DNA of 54,750 nt. Source: Polyangiaceae bacterium (GTDB taxonomy: Bacteria; Myxococcota_A; Polyangia; Polyangiales; Polyangiaceae). A model generated the notes under the pieces. The model was not told where the DNA came from, did no database searches, and was given only the letters and a program-made list of their open reading frames with translations. Positions 1 through 51,136 of this stretch are shown here, piece by piece. Each line of letters begins with the position of its first letter. The first letter of the stretch is position 1. The translations under genes and the position numbers were made by a program. The stretch is from NCBI GenBank assembly GCA_029261965.1, contig JAJDAH010000017.1, positions 32,501 to 87,250 on the forward strand, given 5' to 3'.

Positions 1-840
<840 letters not shown>

Positions 841-44014: not shown

Positions 44015-44872
44015 TTGCTCCGCGCAACCCTGCTGTTCATCGTCGCCTACGTCGTCGCGTTCGGCGCCGCCATAGCCTCCGGTTTCGTCGTCGACGAGCA
44101 TTCACCGATAGTCGTCGCGGCGGTCGCCAACGTCGTCGCCACCATCGTCATATTCGGGTTCAGCCGGGCCATCGACAACTCGAGTGTGTACGACCCGTAT
44201 TGGAGCGTCGTGCCTCCGGCGATCTGCGGCTATTGGGCGCTGTTGCCGGAAGCGGCGGGCGGGCAGCCGCTGAGACAGGTCGTGGTTCTAGGTCTCGTCG
44301 GGATCTGGGGGTTTCGGCTGACGTTCAACTTCGCCCGACGCTGGCAAGGGCTCGCCCACGAGGATTGGCGCTACATCGACCTGAGGAAAAAGCACGGCAA
44401 GGCGTTTTGGGTCGTCAGTTTTCTAGGGATTCACTTTTTCCCCAGCGTTCTCATTTTTCTCGGCAGCGTACCCGTGTTTTTTGCGCTCGGGTCGAGCGCG
44501 CCGCTGTCGTGGCTCGACGCCGGTGCGGCAACGGTGACCGCCGTGGCGATCGCCCTGGAAGCGCTATCGGACCGACAGCTGCACGACTTCGTCCGAAACC
44601 GAAAAAAGCCGGGCGAGATCATACGAAGCGGCCTGTGGCGGTATTCCAGGCACCCGAACTACTTCGGTGAAGCGCTTTTCTGGTTCGGTCTGTTTCTTTT
44701 TGGGCTCGGCTCGGGTGCCCCCTGGTGGACGGTAGTAGGGGCCGTCGGCATTTCGCTCCTGTTGCGTTTTCTCAGCATTCCCATGCTGGAGGAGCGGATG
44801 CAAAACCGCGCAGGCTATGCCGACCACGTGCGGAAGACATCAGCGCTGCTGCTTTGGCCGCCGAGGCGCTGA
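44015..44872 (+). CDS. DUF1295 / steroid 5-alpha-reductase-like membrane protein
   Basis: The 285-residue protein has about seven helices and the DUF1295 hallmarks SVYDPYWSVVP, RLTFNFARRWQGLAHEDWRY, and RSGLWRYSRHPNYFGEALFWFGLFLF near the C-terminus. The family is related to 3-oxo-steroid 4-dehydrogenases and ICMT-type enzymes, but bacterial members lack defined substrates. It begins with TTG 44015, 6 bp after the SDR. The SDR-reductase pairing suggests lipid or isoprenoid metabolism. Confidence 0.85.
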   Translation: MLRATLLFIVAYVVAFGAAIASGFVVDEHSPIVVAAVANVVATIVIFGFSRAIDNSSVYDPYWSVVPPAICGYWALLPEAAGGQPLRQVVVLGLVGIWGFRLTFNFARRWQGLAHEDWRYIDLRKKHGKAFWVVSFLGIHFFPSVLIFLGSVPVFFALGSSAPLSWLDAGAATVTAVAIALEALSDRQLHDFVRNRKKPGEIIRSGLWRYSRHPNYFGEALFWFGLFLFGLGSGAPWWTVVGAVGISLLLRFLSIPMLEERMQNRAGYADHVRKTSALLLWPPRR

Positions 44873-44947: not shown

Positions 44948-45550
44948 ATGAAACGCCGCAACGTGCTGACCACTGCCGCCACCGCGCTGACCACGATCGC
45001 TCTCGTCGCGACGATGGGCGCTTGTGAGGAACCGAAAAAAACCGAGCCGAGCGCTAAGCCGAGTGCCGTCGCGCCAGCGCCTCCCCCCGAGCCGGAGAAG
45101 CCGCTCAAGATTCGACCTCTTCGAAACAACAAGCTCGACATCAAGCTCAACGACGAGCGTCGTGCGAAGATCGAAAAGGCCATTCCGGACGCATTGGGTT
45201 TCATCCCCGCCGCAGAAATCGAAGCCAAGATCCACAAGAAGAAGCTCGAGGAAGAAGAGCCGGCGCTCGAGGCTTTCGACAAGGAAGCCAAGGGCAAGTG
45301 GCTGCTTTTCGTGGGCAACATGATCAAGATGACCGATTCGGGATTCGAAATGGCCGTCTCCTACACGCCGCAGGCCGAAGGCGATCCGATGGGCATGAGT
45401 CGAAAGTTCTTCATGGTCAGCATCAGCGACGTAAAGGGCTACGAGAAGTCGAAGTTCAAGGATGGCGAACGCGGCGTCGTGCTCGCGAAGTACGCCGGGG
45501 ACAAGAAGGCTTCTCCAGCTTACGAGGTCATCGAGCTCGAGCACTGGTAG
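44948..45550 (+). CDS. Lipoprotein of unknown function
   Basis: The 200-residue protein starts at ATG 44948. Its signal is MKRRNVLTTAATALTTIALVATMGAC, then a Pro/Lys linker. The C-terminal ~130 residues include LGFIPAAEIEAKIHKKKLEEEEPALEAFDKEAKGKWLLFVGNMIKMTDSGFEMAVSYTPQ, a charged helix followed by a beta-sheet. There is no recognisable family. It is placed directly in front of the ABC ATPase (stop and start adjacent). Confidence 0.8.
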   Translation: MKRRNVLTTAATALTTIALVATMGACEEPKKTEPSAKPSAVAPAPPPEPEKPLKIRPLRNNKLDIKLNDERRAKIEKAIPDALGFIPAAEIEAKIHKKKLEEEEPALEAFDKEAKGKWLLFVGNMIKMTDSGFEMAVSYTPQAEGDPMGMSRKFFMVSISDVKGYEKSKFKDGERGVVLAKYAGDKKASPAYEVIELEHW

Positions 45551-46360
45551 ATGCCGTCGGCGGCGCCTGTCCTCCGCGTAGCGGGCATCTGTGTCCGTCG
45601 AGAAGGCAAAACCATCCTGGATGACGTCGATTGGTGCGTCGAGCACGGGCAACACTGGGTCCTGATTGGCGCGAACGGGTCGGGCAAGACGAGCCTGCTC
45701 AACACGCTCACGGCGTACCTTTCTCCGACGCGAGGCTCGGTCGAAGTGCTCGGTCATCGGTACGGTGAGACCGACTGGCGCGAGCTGAGAAAGAGCATTG
45801 GTATCGTGACGACCGCGGTGCCGACCCTGATGCCAGCGGGGGAATCGGCACTTCGAGTCGTGCTGAGCGGCACCGAGGCCATGATCGGTTTCTACGGCGA
45901 GCCCCAGGCGGACGCGCTCGAGCGAGCGAGACAGATTCTCGCCCAGGTCGAGTGTACCGAGCTCGAATCCAGGCCCTGGCGTGTGCTCTCGCAAGGCGAG
46001 CGTCAGCGGCTGCTCATCGGCCGCGCGCTCATCGCAGATCCACCGCTCTTGATCCTCGACGAGCCGTGCGCGGGTCTCGATCCCGTTGCCCGCGAGCGCT
46101 TCCTGGACTTCCTAGGCCGTTTGGGAAAAAAGCTCGACGCACCGACGCTCGTGTTCGTCACTCACCACGTCGAAGAAATCATCGACGTGTTCACGCACGT
46201 GCTGTTGCTTCGAGCGGGCCGCGTGCTGGCCGCGGGGCCCAAGTCCGAAGTGCTGACGAGCGACGGTTTGGCCGAGGCGTTTGCCACGTCGGTCGAGCTC
46301 GAAGAAAAGGAGGGGCGATACGTTCTTCGGGTCGAGCCGAACGCCGAGGTCATCTCGTGA
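45551..46360 (+). CDS. ABC transporter ATP-binding protein (no permease in window)
   Basis: The 269-residue ATPase has Walker A GANGSGKTS, signature LSQGERQRLLIGRA, Walker B LLILDEPCAG and switch His in FVTHHVEEI. It resembles the ModF/YlmA type, an ABC subunit without a genomically linked permease. It starts in the base after the lipoprotein stop and overlaps the PpiC gene by 4 bp. It may power an unlinked permease. Confidence 0.9.
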   Translation: MPSAAPVLRVAGICVRREGKTILDDVDWCVEHGQHWVLIGANGSGKTSLLNTLTAYLSPTRGSVEVLGHRYGETDWRELRKSIGIVTTAVPTLMPAGESALRVVLSGTEAMIGFYGEPQADALERARQILAQVECTELESRPWRVLSQGERQRLLIGRALIADPPLLILDEPCAGLDPVARERFLDFLGRLGKKLDAPTLVFVTHHVEEIIDVFTHVLLLRAGRVLAAGPKSEVLTSDGLAEAFATSVELEEKEGRYVLRVEPNAEVIS

Positions 46361-47235
46361 CCGCTCTGGGGCGATCGCCGACCGTGGTGCTGGCGGTTGG
46401 TGCGACGATTGGTGTGCTGATGGCGGCCTACGGCATCGCGAGGCCGTCGATCGAACATCGGGACGTGCCGAAGGGCGCGGTGGCCGTCGTCAACGGTACC
46501 GCGATCACCACCGTCGACTACCAACAAGCGCTCCAGGCCTTGAAGTCGGACCGGAAACGACAGTCCCTCGAGCCTGGTGACCGTGAACGAGTGCTCGAGC
46601 GACTCGTCGACGAGGAGCTGTTGCTCCAACGCGCCCTCGCTCTCGACATCCCACGCCAGGATGGAAAGATTCGTGCCTCGCTCACGAGAGCGATGATCGC
46701 GTCGATCGTAGGCGAGGTCGAGGAGGCGCCTCCGTCGGAAGCCGCGCTCGAGGCGCACTTCGAGGCTCATCGTGACTACTTTCGTCAGCCGACATTGCTC
46801 GAGGTCGAGCAAATCTTCTTTTCGACGGCCGGGGACGGTGGCGCGCCGGCCCTTGGGCGCGCGCAGGCGGCGACGGGACGCTTGAAGGCCGGCGAGTCTT
46901 TCGAAGACGTCGCCCGCGACGCCGATTCGCCCCCCGTGGCTCTGCCCCGCGGACTTCTGCCGCTCGGGAAGCTCGTGGACTATCTCGGCCCGACTGCAGC
47001 GCGCACGGCCTCCGAGCTCGAAGGCGACGGGGCGAGCGGCCCCGTGCTGAGCGGCGACGGGTACCGGCTCTTGCGTGTCACCGCGAGGAGCGGAAGCGCG
47101 CCGGCGTCGTTCACCGACGTGCGCGAGCAGGTAGCGGTGGACTACCGACGCCGCGCGGACGACCGGCGATTGCGCGAGTACCTCGAGGGGTTGCGTGCCG
47201 AAGCCGAGCTTCGTCGCCCGAAGGAAGCTCCTTGA
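46357..47235 (+). CDS. Membrane-anchored PpiC-type peptidyl-prolyl isomerase
   Basis: The 292-residue protein starts at GTG 46357 with one N-terminal anchor (VVLAVGATIGVLMAAYGIA). A SurA-N-like chaperone helix bundle follows (AVVNGTAITTVDYQQALQALKSD ... LERLVDEELLLQRALALDI), then a parvulin-like region (RQPTLLEVEQIFFST ... ARDADSPPVALPRGLLPLG). The latter is degenerate, so catalytic activity is doubtful. It would help fold periplasmic or membrane proteins, plausibly the adjacent HupE and DUF3604 proteins. Its stop overlaps the hupE-like start. Confidence 0.85.
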   Translation: MTALGRSPTVVLAVGATIGVLMAAYGIARPSIEHRDVPKGAVAVVNGTAITTVDYQQALQALKSDRKRQSLEPGDRERVLERLVDEELLLQRALALDIPRQDGKIRASLTRAMIASIVGEVEEAPPSEAALEAHFEAHRDYFRQPTLLEVEQIFFSTAGDGGAPALGRAQAATGRLKAGESFEDVARDADSPPVALPRGLLPLGKLVDYLGPTAARTASELEGDGASGPVLSGDGYRLLRVTARSGSAPASFTDVREQVAVDYRRRADDRRLREYLEGLRAEAELRRPKEAP

Positions 47236-48398
47236 TTCGGCTCATCGGCGTTTTGCTCGCGCTGGCCCTGGTACTGGGCGCGACGACCGCCGAGGCCCAC
47301 CAGCGCAACACGTCGTATTCCTCTTTTTGGATCGACGAGTCTGGCGCGCGCGTCGTTCTGCGCGCGCCAACTCGCCAGCTCACCAGTGGCGGCAACTCGC
47401 CCGCGGTCGAGCTATCGATCCATGCTGAATCGCTCGTCATGCTGGCGGACGGGCACCCGTGTTTGCCCGTCGCCGGCAGCGGCAGACCGGTAGCCTCCGC
47501 GCCCGGGTGGACCGCGCGAACCTGGCGAGTCGAGTGTGGGTCCGGGGTGAGGAGCATCGAGAGTCGCATGAGCCAAGCGGCGCCAGGGAGACTTCACTTC
47601 GTTCGCGTTCGCCGCGGCCAGAAGGTGTCCGAGACCGTTCTCACCGGCAGCACGAGCACGTGGATCCTCGAAGAAGGTCGCGCCGAGCGCGTCGGAGGAA
47701 CGAGTTTCTGGGGCTTCGTGCAGCTCGGCGTGAAACACATCCTCTCGGGCTACGATCATCTGGTCTTCCTGCTGGTGCTCGTCATTGCGAGCCTTTCGGT
47801 TAGCCAGGTGGCCTTCTTGGTGACCGGTTTCACGATTGGGCACAGCGTGACCCTCGGCCTCGCGGTTGCCGGAAACGTTTCCCCCGACGTGAAGACGGTC
47901 GAGGCGTTGATCGGGGTGTCGATCGCCGTGGTCGCCGTGGAAAACGTGTGGTCGATTGGTTCCCGCGGACCATGGATCCCCCGAATCGCCGGCGGTGCGC
48001 TCGCCTTGCTCGCTGGGGCCGTGTTTCTCCGAGAGCGCGTGGTGCCGTGGGCGTTCGCCGGCGTCGGGCTCTTCACCCTTTGCTATTTCGCGCTGCTGTC
48101 TCGCTCGGAGCATTCCGAGCGTCTGCGGTGGGGCGTTGCAGGCCTTTTCGGGCTCGTGCACGGATTCGGATTTGCGGCGTCGCTTGGGGAGCTCGACATG
48201 CCGGCGGGGAGGACCGCCGAGGCGCTCTTTGGCTTCAACACGGGAGTCGAGCTCGGGCAGCTCGTGGTCGTTCTTGCCATTTGGCCTCTGCTTTTGCTGG
48301 TGCGGCGGCGAGCGGGCCAGGAGGCGCTGCTTGGCTGGGGCTCTGCCGCGGCGCTCAGCGTCGGTATCTTCTGGGCGCTGACGCGCACGTTTTCCTGA
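47232..48398 (+). CDS. HupE/UreJ-family membrane protein with periplasmic N-domain
   Basis: The 388-residue protein starts at TTG 47232 and has a signal (LGATTAEAHQ). A ~130-residue beta-rich periplasmic domain follows, then six to seven helices. The membrane part has the HX5DH metal motif of HupE/UreJ (KHILSGYDHLVF) and a second motif GLVHGFGFAAS. Family members are nickel or cobalt permeases; the long N-domain here is unlike classical HupE. Metal transport or a metal-dependent membrane function is likely. Confidence 0.87.
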   Translation: MIRLIGVLLALALVLGATTAEAHQRNTSYSSFWIDESGARVVLRAPTRQLTSGGNSPAVELSIHAESLVMLADGHPCLPVAGSGRPVASAPGWTARTWRVECGSGVRSIESRMSQAAPGRLHFVRVRRGQKVSETVLTGSTSTWILEEGRAERVGGTSFWGFVQLGVKHILSGYDHLVFLLVLVIASLSVSQVAFLVTGFTIGHSVTLGLAVAGNVSPDVKTVEALIGVSIAVVAVENVWSIGSRGPWIPRIAGGALALLAGAVFLRERVVPWAFAGVGLFTLCYFALLSRSEHSERLRWGVAGLFGLVHGFGFAASLGELDMPAGRTAEALFGFNTGVELGQLVVVLAIWPLLLLVRRRAGQEALLGWGSAAALSVGIFWALTRTFS

Positions 48399-48438
48399 GC
48401 CCGCCGAACAGCGTCGGGGTGTGACACAATCACGGCCA

Positions 48439-50739
48439 ATGAAGCGCTGGCTCGCGCGTATAGGCATCACCCTCGGCGTGCTCGTCGTGTTGCTCGCGAT
48501 CGGCGGCTACGTCGTCTACTCGGGCGGCGCTCTCGAAGGTCCGGGGAAAATCGAGGGCAAGGCTCTCCCTCCGGAGGCCGTGGCGGCACGGGTGAAGCTC
48601 CAACGGGACGCCGCGCCCGAAAAGGCCAAACAGATCCTGTTCGGCGATTTGCACGTGCATACGACCTTCTCGATGGACGCGTTCTTTCGCAGTCTGCCGA
48701 TGGTCAATGGCGAGGGCGCCCACCCGCCCGCGGATGCGTGCGACTTCGCCCGGTACTGCTCGCAACTGGACTTCTTCAGCTTCAACGACCACGCCGAGGC
48801 GCTCACGCCGGAGCACTGGCAGGAGACCAAGGAGACCGTTCGGCAGTGCAACGCGCTCGCCGGGGATTCGGAGAATCCGGATCTCGTCGTGTTTGCGGGC
48901 TGGGAGTGGTCGCAGGTCGGCCTCGTCGCCGAAAAGCACTACGGCCACAAGAACGTGATCTTTCGCGACGAGGCCGACGACCAGCTCCCCCGACGCACGA
49001 TCGCCGCGCCGGGCCAATCGAGGCAGGCGCTCCGCGGCGGCGGTCAGGGGGCCCCACGCAACGTGCGCGCGCTTCTCGTGCCGTTGCTCGAGTTCTCCGA
49101 GCGCCAGCGCTACCTCGACATCGCCAAGCTGCAGCGCTCGGCCATGTCCGTTCCCGATTGCCCCACTGGAGTCGACTCGACGAAGATCACCGAGCGCTGT
49201 CACGAAGAAGCCGAGACGCCCCGAGAGCTGTTCGAGAAGCTCGAGCAGTGGGGCTTGCCGACCCTCGTCATTCCTCACGGCACGACCTGGGGCCTCTACA
49301 CGCCCCCGGGCTACAGCTACGACAAGCAAATAGCCCCCGAGCAGAACCATGCGATGCAGAGCCTCATCGAGATTTACTCTGGCCACGGCAACTCGGAGGA
49401 ACATCGCGCGTGGCGCGAGGCGCTGAACGAAAACGGACAGCTCACCTGTCCGGAACCGACGGAAAACTACGAACCCTGCTGTTGGCGTGCCGGAGAAATC
49501 ATTCGCTCGCGCTGCGGTGACGCGCCCGTCGACGAGTGCGAGAAGCGGGTGAAAGACGCCAGAGCCAAGCATTTGGCCGCGGGCATGGCTGGCCACTTGA
49601 GCGTGCCGGGCCACGACATCGAGCAGTGGGGCAACTGCGGACAGTGTGAGGACTGCTTCCTGCCGACGTTCGACCACAAGCCGGGTGGAAGCGTTCAGTA
49701 CATCATGGCGAAGGGCAGCTTCGCCGAGGGTCGACCGCCGGCCTACGCGCCGATGGGGTTCATCGGTTCGAGCGACGTGCACACCGCGCGCCCAGGTACG
49801 GGGTACAAGGAGTTTGCTCGACGCCGAATGGCGGACGCCTCGGGGCCCAAGAGCGCCGAATGGCGCGAGCGGCTCGCCGGCCGCGAGCTGCCGGGCCCAA
49901 AACTGCCGGAGTCATACGACGTGGATCCGGTCAAGCTCGCGCAGCAGGGGGTTCCGCCCTTCGCCATCCCCAACTTCGAGCGGGCGGCGTCATTCTTCAC
50001 GACCGGCGGGCTCGTCGCAACGCACAGCACCGGAAGGAGTCGAGGCGACATTTGGGATGCGCTCCAGCGTCGGGAGGTCTACGCGACGAGCGGCGAGCGC
50101 ATCTTGCTTTGGTTCGATCTCGTCACCGACGCTGGGACGCGCCCCATGGGCTCGAGCCTGAGCCTCGGGGTGCCGCCCAGGTTCAAGGTGCGCGCGGCCG
50201 GCGCGTTCGAGCAGAAAGCGGGTTGTCCCGAATGGACCACCGCGGGCCTCTCCAAGGAACGCACGCAGCATCTATGCGCGGGAGAGTGCTACCACCCGAG
50301 CGACAAGCGGCGACCCATCGCCAAGATCGAGGTCGTGCGCATCCGTCCCCAAGTTCGCGCGGACGAATCGGTCACTGAGCTCATCGAAGACGTTTGGAAA
50401 ACGCTCGAGTGTGAGAGTGGACCGGTCTGCGAAGTCGAGTTCGACGACCCGAGCTTCGTCGATGGAGCCCGGAACGTTTACTACTACGTGCGCGCGCTCC
50501 AGAACCCGACGCCGGCGGTCAATGCCGGAAATCTCCGGTGCGAACGCGACGCGTCGGGCAGGTGCACGAACGTGAAACCCTGTTACGGAGATTTCCGCAC
50601 GCCTTACCAAGACGATTGCCTGGCGCCCGCCGCCGAGAGGGCGTGGTCTTCGCCCATTTTCGTACGGTTCGACGCCGAGGCCGCGAAAAAGGCGAAAGCG
50701 GAAGCGGACAACGACACCGACGGCGAATCGAAACCTTGA
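48439..50739 (+). CDS. DUF3604 protein (PHP-like metal-site protein)
   Basis: The 766-residue protein has an N-terminal anchor (LARIGITLGVLVVLLAIGGYVVY) and a large DUF3604 domain. PHP-like metal-ligand motifs are visible: GDLHVHTTFS (His72, His74), FNDHAEA (Asp117, His118), IPHGTTWG (His280) and SSDVHTARPG (Asp446, His448), consistent with a phosphoesterase-type metallocentre. Many Cys are present (CCW, CGQCEDC). The substrate is unknown. ATG 48439 gives a clean anchor; GTG 48421 is possible. It lies 40 bp after the HupE gene. Confidence 0.87.
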   Translation: MKRWLARIGITLGVLVVLLAIGGYVVYSGGALEGPGKIEGKALPPEAVAARVKLQRDAAPEKAKQILFGDLHVHTTFSMDAFFRSLPMVNGEGAHPPADACDFARYCSQLDFFSFNDHAEALTPEHWQETKETVRQCNALAGDSENPDLVVFAGWEWSQVGLVAEKHYGHKNVIFRDEADDQLPRRTIAAPGQSRQALRGGGQGAPRNVRALLVPLLEFSERQRYLDIAKLQRSAMSVPDCPTGVDSTKITERCHEEAETPRELFEKLEQWGLPTLVIPHGTTWGLYTPPGYSYDKQIAPEQNHAMQSLIEIYSGHGNSEEHRAWREALNENGQLTCPEPTENYEPCCWRAGEIIRSRCGDAPVDECEKRVKDARAKHLAAGMAGHLSVPGHDIEQWGNCGQCEDCFLPTFDHKPGGSVQYIMAKGSFAEGRPPAYAPMGFIGSSDVHTARPGTGYKEFARRRMADASGPKSAEWRERLAGRELPGPKLPESYDVDPVKLAQQGVPPFAIPNFERAASFFTTGGLVATHSTGRSRGDIWDALQRREVYATSGERILLWFDLVTDAGTRPMGSSLSLGVPPRFKVRAAGAFEQKAGCPEWTTAGLSKERTQHLCAGECYHPSDKRRPIAKIEVVRIRPQVRADESVTELIEDVWKTLECESGPVCEVEFDDPSFVDGARNVYYYVRALQNPTPAVNAGNLRCERDASGRCTNVKPCYGDFRTPYQDDCLAPAAERAWSSPIFVRFDAEAAKKAKAEADNDTDGESKP

Positions 50740-50773: not shown

Positions 50774-51136
50774 ATGAAGCGACTTCTGCTGCCTCTGGTG
50801 GTCTCGTTCGTCGCCGCTTGCGGCCCCCATTCGCCGAAGACGTCGGCGGAGCCAGAGTCGGGACAGACCTTCGAGCAGGCCCTCGGGCTGATGTGCCAGG
50901 TCGATCAGATGGCCGGTCTCGACGCCGACGACGATCCCATCGGCGTCGAAGGAGCCCGGGTCGACTGGATCCATCAAAACGTCGACAACGGTGACGCCAT
51001 CGAGTTGTTCACCCTGATGCGCGTCAAGAGCCACACGGAGCAAGCGGAGATGATGCGGCGCCACACTCAGAAGGCGAACATTGCGGAGTGCGCCTTGGCA
51101 GATACGCTGACCGAGCAAGCCTCTGTGCTCGACTGA
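50774..51136 (+). CDS. Small lipoprotein of unknown function
   Basis: The 120-residue protein has a lipobox signal (LLLPLVVSFVAAC) and an acidic, all-helical mature part (TFEQALGLMCQVDQMAGLDADDD ... AIELFTLMRVKSHTEQAEMMRRHTQKANIAECALADTL) with two Cys that may bond. It is 34 bp after DUF3604 on the same strand, so it may belong to that unit. Not assignable to a family. Confidence 0.8.
   Translation: MKRLLLPLVVSFVAACGPHSPKTSAEPESGQTFEQALGLMCQVDQMAGLDADDDPIGVEGARVDWIHQNVDNGDAIELFTLMRVKSHTEQAEMMRRHTQKANIAECALADTLTEQASVLD

Follow-up and report, generated by a model that had tools for sequence, protein, structure and literature searches.

A stretch of 54,750 nucleotides from a Polyangiaceae bacterium (assembly GCA_029261965.1, contig JAJDAH010000017.1; its full length is called the window below) carries a run of three genes, for a PpiC/SurA-like chaperone, a HupE/UreJ-2 permease and a DUF3604 protein (hereafter PpiC, HupE and DUF3604). 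Co-inheritance of the three across genomes, combined with linkage in several gene orders, strongly supports a functional link between them. We think it probable that PpiC and HupE, whose outer domain resembles the metal-binding anglerases, form a dedicated maturation pair for DUF3604, a predicted periplasmic metallohydrolase of the PHP type. Each protein is of a known kind, and the domain type of HupE has already been described; neither the co-inherited trio nor its two lineages came up among the papers listed from the open PubMed Central literature (searched for HupE, PpiC, DUF3604, UreJ, PF13795 and anglerase), where DUF3604 together with HupE gave no paper, and neither did PF13795.

Co-inheritance and linkage of the three genes

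The survey of co-inheritance covers 282 genomes of the phylum, the window assembly included, with DUF3604 and HupE of the window and a PpiC profile as queries. Strong hits represent the subtype of the window and are called A-type (E of at most 3e-28 for HupE and 1e-42 for PpiC, cut-offs set by eye at gaps among the best places listed). DUF3604 of this type is present in 70 genomes, HupE in 64 and PpiC in 63, and all three occur in 61 of the 71 genomes that hold any of them; one genome scored as lacking PpiC (G040) holds a partial PpiC at 1e-34. Taken pairwise, DUF3604 and HupE are both present in 63 genomes, the first alone in 7, the second alone in 1, and neither in 211; the corresponding figures are 62, 2, 1 and 217 for HupE and PpiC (62 of the 65 genomes holding either have both), and 62, 8, 1 and 211 for DUF3604 and PpiC. 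The pattern is all-or-none within families: in the window's own, 7 of 22 genomes hold all three genes and 15 none, and in a second family 6 of 11 hold all three and 5 none. Nor does it depend on proximity. PpiC lies within 1.5 kb at 42 of the 65 HupE places (in 64 genomes); in 21 of the other 23, it is found on another contig of the genome.

Physical linkage was scanned with profiles of the three proteins at the best 80 loci with the DUF3604 subtype, out of at least 569 that encode a relative, within 6 kb or to the contig end. Both partners are found at 35 loci, PpiC alone at 4 and HupE alone at 1, counts that are uncorrected for contig ends and include several close relatives, so that 35 linked loci are not 35 events. 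Given about one HupE per genome, we roughly estimate (without a computed control) that chance would link about 0.2 of the 80; the partners, for which the preliminary description of the window had proposed a neighbourhood survey, thus occur together above chance. The order DUF3604-PpiC-HupE predominates (26 of the 35), two loci (L202, L206) have PpiC-HupE-DUF3604, as do the window and a further locus (L107), and seven have the genes on opposed strands. HupE is A-type at 31 of the linked loci, incomplete at two (L159, L200) and of second-type score at two (L163, L211). Loci with a linked trio come from Myxococcota, Binatota, Alpha- and Gammaproteobacteria; record titles include Myxococcales, Candidatus Binatia, Robiginitomaculum, Caulobacteraceae, Hyphomonadaceae, Perlucidibaca aquatica and a Salinisphaerales bacterium. 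PpiC and HupE are the tighter pair, because PpiC adjoins HupE in 11 of 16 related loci without DUF3604 within reach (tblastn).

Similar neighbours had been mentioned for some marine Gammaproteobacteria, and the link does exist there, but it is rare. Among 274 genomes of the class of Perlucidibaca, which we take to be the Gammaproteobacteria, A-type DUF3604 is present in 6 and HupE in 4, all among those 6 (two of these four, G283 and G284, were known before the survey); the two DUF3604 genomes without HupE are 1.2 and 1.5 Mb in size. A strong HupE is present in nine of 12 named genomes, picked by hand, that carry the DUF3604 subtype.

The arrangement recurs in a second lineage. DUF3604 of the window belongs to a divergent branch beside the canonical branch of PF12228, the Pfam family of DUF3604, and canonical PF12228 proteins also sit with PpiC and HupE, of a second type. 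The window's own genome holds such a set in the same gene order (contig C420, L112:6705-10476). Both partners are found at 6 of 30 tool-chosen canonical loci (1.5-kb flanks), a fairer figure than that from a separate set of 20, in which at least seven loci were picked after a nearby HupE or PpiC hit had been seen. In maximum-likelihood trees of 30 A-type and 12 canonical loci, hand-chosen, with L163 and L211 not included and labels given by the DUF3604 of each locus, HupE (31 A and 7 B rows) and DUF3604 (30 A and 10 B rows) show the same division into two groups, with 100/100 support; 5 of 43 HupE and 3 of 43 DUF3604 rows were omitted as too short, and only about half of the columns are filled in the canonical DUF3604 rows. 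In 17 of 19 second-type HupE proteins, a stretch resembling a signal peptide is followed by a His that lies 123-134 residues ahead of the HX5DH motif. The types also occur close together: L163 combines an A-type DUF3604 with a neighbouring HupE-PpiC pair of the second type and a further DUF3604, and at L206 a PpiC-HupE pair of the second type lies a few kb from an A-type trio.

Several observations pull the other way. At 40 of the 80 scanned loci, neither partner is found within 6 kb or the contig end. Seven of the 70 genomes with A-type DUF3604 have no strong HupE (G131 among these, though, carries a divergent trio that is linked), and three of the 12 hand-picked genomes (G282, G285 and G287, all Gammaproteobacteria records) yield second-type HupE hits alone, at 1e-29 to 1e-32. 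L211 has PpiC and HupE of the second type next to an A-type DUF3604; matching of partner types between the lineages is not strict. Outside the A-type genomes, co-occurrence of PF12228 with any HupE-like hit, for which the query was the A-type protein, is weak (both in 56 genomes, PF12228 alone in 26, HupE alone in 63, neither in 67; p 0.007). Finally, the Fisher p-values for the pairwise counts of the A-type genes overstate the case, since the genomes are related and not independent.

A patchy distribution across phyla, the relatedness of the genomes and the mixing of partner types (in the hand-picked genomes and at L211) would be expected if horizontal transfer or common ancestry had merely kept the genes together although they do not act jointly. 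We consider this very unlikely: co-retention holds when the genes are on different contigs, the all-or-none pattern repeats inside two families, the two paralogous lineages mostly keep matched partners, and none of the Pfam families among 96 neighbour proteins accompanies the trio constantly.

Predicted features of the three proteins

In HupE, the membrane domain (residues ~159-387; PF13795, 142.2 bits against a curated cut-off of 24.5) is preceded by a putative signal peptide (1-22) and a domain at ~23-149. The HX5DH motif (169-176, in the first membrane helices), which we take to be needed for nickel transport in HupE, is intact, as the preliminary description had it: all 21 aligned proteins have H169, D175 and H176. 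An automatic check of 36 HupE frames, taken from named loci, recovered the motif in 34, both exceptions being pieces at one locus (L142), and a clear pattern of signal peptide and His in 28. Residue 23 is His in all 21 aligned proteins, preceded by Ala (20) or Gly (1); judging from the AxA pattern of the cleavage site, His23 would form the mature N-terminus directly after the signal peptide.

The domain before the membrane part, earlier singled out as unusual and periplasmic, is by its model anglerase-like. Searches of the PDB with the HupE sequence, single and profile, gave no useful relative, and a search of NCBIfam with HupE and DUF3604 of the window no useful match. In the AlphaFold2 model (predicted local distance difference test, pLDDT, 88), the domain aligns with 9GCE, the copper-bound Ang-1 domain of a HupE/UreJ-2 protein, at Z 8.8 and a root-mean-square deviation of 3.2 over 120 residues (model 23..149 on chain 1..157); ZrgA (8F1B; Z 12.1, above 9GCE) and PA4063 match as well. 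Position 120 is His in 20 relatives and Arg in the window protein, which keeps H122 and the Cys pair 77/102. Anglerases, the name given to the Ang-1 and Ang-2 domains of HupE/UreJ-2 proteins (Franco Cairo et al., 2025; PMC12537917), share with the window protein the PF13795 membrane domain, the signal peptide followed by an invariant His, and an immunoglobulin (Ig)-like β-sandwich, the match to 9GCE starting at its residue 1. It differs in its low identity to 9GCE (12% over the aligned domain), in which the second ligand is Asn41. With the HupE/UreJ nickel permeases encoded in clusters for hydrogenase and urease, the protein has in common the membrane permease and its HX5DH motif; it differs from them by the extra periplasmic domain and the linked PHP-type protein.

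The PHP-like metal ligands that the preliminary description saw in DUF3604 are present and conserved: H72, H74, E156, H167, H170, H280, H316, D446 and H448 in 18 of 18 sequences, and D117 and H118 in 17 of 17, the assignment as ligands being by motif and general knowledge rather than by geometry. The protein scores 89.6 bits with PF12228 (cut-off 20.4), split over four stretches. Sequence searches of the PDB, single and profile, found no relative, but its AlphaFold2 model (pLDDT 78, predicted template-modelling score 0.84) points to a PHP fold: it aligns with the two-domain PHP protein BVU_3505 (3E38) at Z 14.4 over 222 residues, and also with the PHP domains of Pol III alpha (Z ~10) and RNase AM (Z 8.2); with Foldseek alone, the best E is 5.6e-3. 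From the helix at residues 2-27 and the 22 conserved cysteines, each retained in 16 or more of the 17 or 18 sequences that cover its position, we infer that DUF3604 is a membrane-anchored periplasmic enzyme.

Exported PHP enzymes have been characterised. They include carbamate hydrolases, such as the carbaryl hydrolase of strain C5pp, which is periplasmic (PMC8292978), and Sb-PDE, a zinc-containing, dithiothreitol-sensitive phosphodiesterase with a putative signal peptide, which is not activated by Cu or Ni (PMC5460133). DUF3604 resembles the PHP hydrolases (3E38, Sb-PDE, CehA/McbA) in its fold and in the HxH, DH, E, H, H and DxH ligands, and differs from them by its 22 conserved cysteines and the companion genes for PpiC and HupE. 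An assignment to the CehA/McbA family itself (NF038032) was rejected: the window protein hits no NCBIfam family at E 1, whereas 15 of the 18 proteins in its alignment, the window protein not among them, match CehA/McbA (best 2.3e-10). Among open PubMed Central papers, so far as their accessible text goes, a Chlamydia transposon study was all that was found on DUF3604.

PpiC combines SurA_N-like and parvulin-like domains (PF13145, 53.2 bits against a curated cut-off of 27; PF13624, 34.9 against 27.2), as do the periplasmic chaperones SurA, PpiC and PrsA. It differs from these in that no column of 20 aligned sequences has His or Cys, the catalytic residues of the parvulin site, in 50% or more; it is thus probably a chaperone without isomerase activity. 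The parvulin part is shortened in some members of the type, which is inherited with HupE. The folding help that had been ascribed to it is plausible on these terms.

The locus and its neighbours

The three open reading frames (ORFs; Table 1) are as described beforehand, in one run on one strand, PpiC and HupE overlapping by 4 bp and HupE and DUF3604 being separated by 40 bp; an in-frame GTG at 48421 lies upstream of the ATG of DUF3604 at 48439.

Table 1. Genes of the trio, with positions in the window.
Feature	Position	Strand	Length	Start codon	Pfam	Remarks
PpiC/SurA-like chaperone	46357..47235	+	292 aa	GTG	PF13145, PF13624	N-terminal membrane anchor, judged by eye from sequence
HupE/UreJ-2 permease	47232..48398	+	388 aa	TTG	PF13795	N-terminal anglerase-like (Ang-1-like) periplasmic domain
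DUF3604, predicted PHP metallohydrolase	48439..50739	+	766 aa	ATG	PF12228	predicted membrane-anchored, Cys-rich; C-terminal Ig-like domain

The transcript may begin farther upstream than PpiC, because the PpiC frame shares its first 4 bp with the preceding ABC ATPase ORF (45551-46360). This ATPase and the two lipoprotein-like ORFs that flank ATPase and trio (44948-45550 and 50774-51136; no Pfam match) are present as the preliminary description had listed them, but were rejected as parts of the unit: in 40 related loci, tblastn finds no match to the ATPase at E 1e-30 or to the lipoproteins at E 1e-3. Weaker matches to other ABC proteins occur near some trios. A steroid-reductase-like DUF1295 gene (44015-44872) lies a few kb from the trio in the window, and likewise at four loci in genomes of another family (L101, L103, L104, L106).

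For a wider view of the surroundings, neighbouring proteins of 150 to 700 aa encoded within 4.5 kb were scanned against Pfam, with six near-duplicate trio loci and the neighbours of the last lone loci set aside. The scan leaves out 5 of 101 neighbours of trios and 22 of 135 neighbours of lone DUF3604 genes, and gene calling was crude. No Pfam family occurs in more than six of the resulting 96 and 113 proteins, so a fourth constant partner was discarded. The neighbour genes have mixed catabolic functions, as judged around lone DUF3604 genes from the 25 most frequent families, and do not point to a single substrate. The lone-locus families include TonB_2 (four hits) and ExbB (three); TonB_2 and MotA_ExbB hint at a Tol-Pal operon. 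Directly upstream of the lone DUF3604 at L152, L155 and L156 lies a gene of about 1.3 kb, which at L156 codes for a TolB-like PD40 protein; the copies at L152 and L155 are 78 and 88% identical to it.

A probable maturation system for a predicted periplasmic metallohydrolase

In the probable maturation pair, membrane-tethered PpiC would hold the Cys-rich chain of DUF3604 during export and folding, keeping it open for metallation. The outer domain of HupE would hold a transition metal by its N-terminal histidine, work with the HX5DH-bearing membrane part, and present or channel the metal to the PHP centre. DUF3604 itself would be an inner-membrane-anchored, periplasm-facing multi-metal hydrolase of PHP fold which, once finished, cleaves an ester or phosphoester outside the cytoplasm. 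One fixed PpiC-HupE pair could further serve several DUF3604 paralogues encoded elsewhere, as proposed because 37 of the 70 genomes with A-type DUF3604 hold at least three scored copies, against a single strong HupE place in 63 of 64 genomes. The DUF3604 family (PF12228) is found in 152 of the 282 genomes. It is expanded in families f20, f24 and f35 (for example in G205, G171 and G238), where a genome has one strong HupE place; in at least eight of the genomes listed, first-look candidates number more than 40 (3 or 4 of them scored in each genome).

With a good deal more reserve, the trio may be read as a tripartite maturation system for exported PHP metallohydrolases, in which an anglerase-permease delivers metal to a periplasmic enzyme instead of, or besides, importing it into the cytoplasm, with a chaperone built in and two parallel lineages. 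The preliminary description had HupE supply the metal of DUF3604 and PpiC assist. The functional link that this implies is strongly supported, and metal handling is supported by the predicted anglerase-like domain and PHP fold; the supply of metal itself is a proposal, against which two considerations add to those weighed above. Ang-1 prefers Cu, then Ni, in vitro, with dissociation constants of 73.6 nM and 220 nM respectively (PMC12537917), whereas an exported PHP relative, Sb-PDE, holds zinc and is not activated by Cu or Ni. HupE homologues, moreover, are described in the accessible literature as nickel permeases and uptake systems, and uptake, if it holds here, would run opposite to what the loading of a periplasmic enzyme requires.

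The direction of transport would be accounted for if the hydrolase served the permease: DUF3604 would hydrolyse a metal-binding or phosphorus-containing compound in the periplasm, the anglerase domain catch the metal released, HupE import it, and PpiC fold one or both. The role proposed for anglerases is indeed metal capture and import (PMC12537917), E. coli expressing HupE or UreJ accumulates nickel according to a citing paper, and co-inheritance fits equally well. Such nutrient acquisition is nevertheless unlikely, as the many DUF3604 copies with mostly one HupE place better suit one supplier with many clients, and the Pfam families around lone DUF3604 genes (the 25 most frequent) show no clear metal-uptake theme. 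The neighbours that Franco Cairo et al. name for Ang-1 are DUF4198, indigoidine A-like proteins and PfkB kinases; DUF3604, PpiC, isomerase and rotamase do not appear in the main text of that paper.

The metal preference, in turn, would be accounted for if the anglerase domain were a guard, which removes Cu or Ni so that the PHP centre receives its proper Zn, Mn or Fe, with HupE carrying off the wrong metal. The affinities of Ang-1 for Cu and Ni, its slight destabilisation by Zn and Mn (PMC12537917) and the zinc of Sb-PDE would all agree with this. We hold it to be improbable, since the requirement for PpiC goes unexplained and, apart from two NosD-like hits, no metal-resistance or efflux family is found among the 25 most frequent families of the 96 trio-neighbour proteins.

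If PpiC and HupE do act as a maturation pair, the trio would give the anglerases, named in 2025 without a known client, a client enzyme. It would also be an instance of metal being delivered to an extracytoplasmic enzyme, a task for which few dedicated systems are known. DUF3604 is widespread, without a described function in the open literature searched; its co-inheritance with an anglerase-HupE and a dedicated chaperone ties the three together, and makes the questions of what DUF3604 does and what anglerases serve directly testable.

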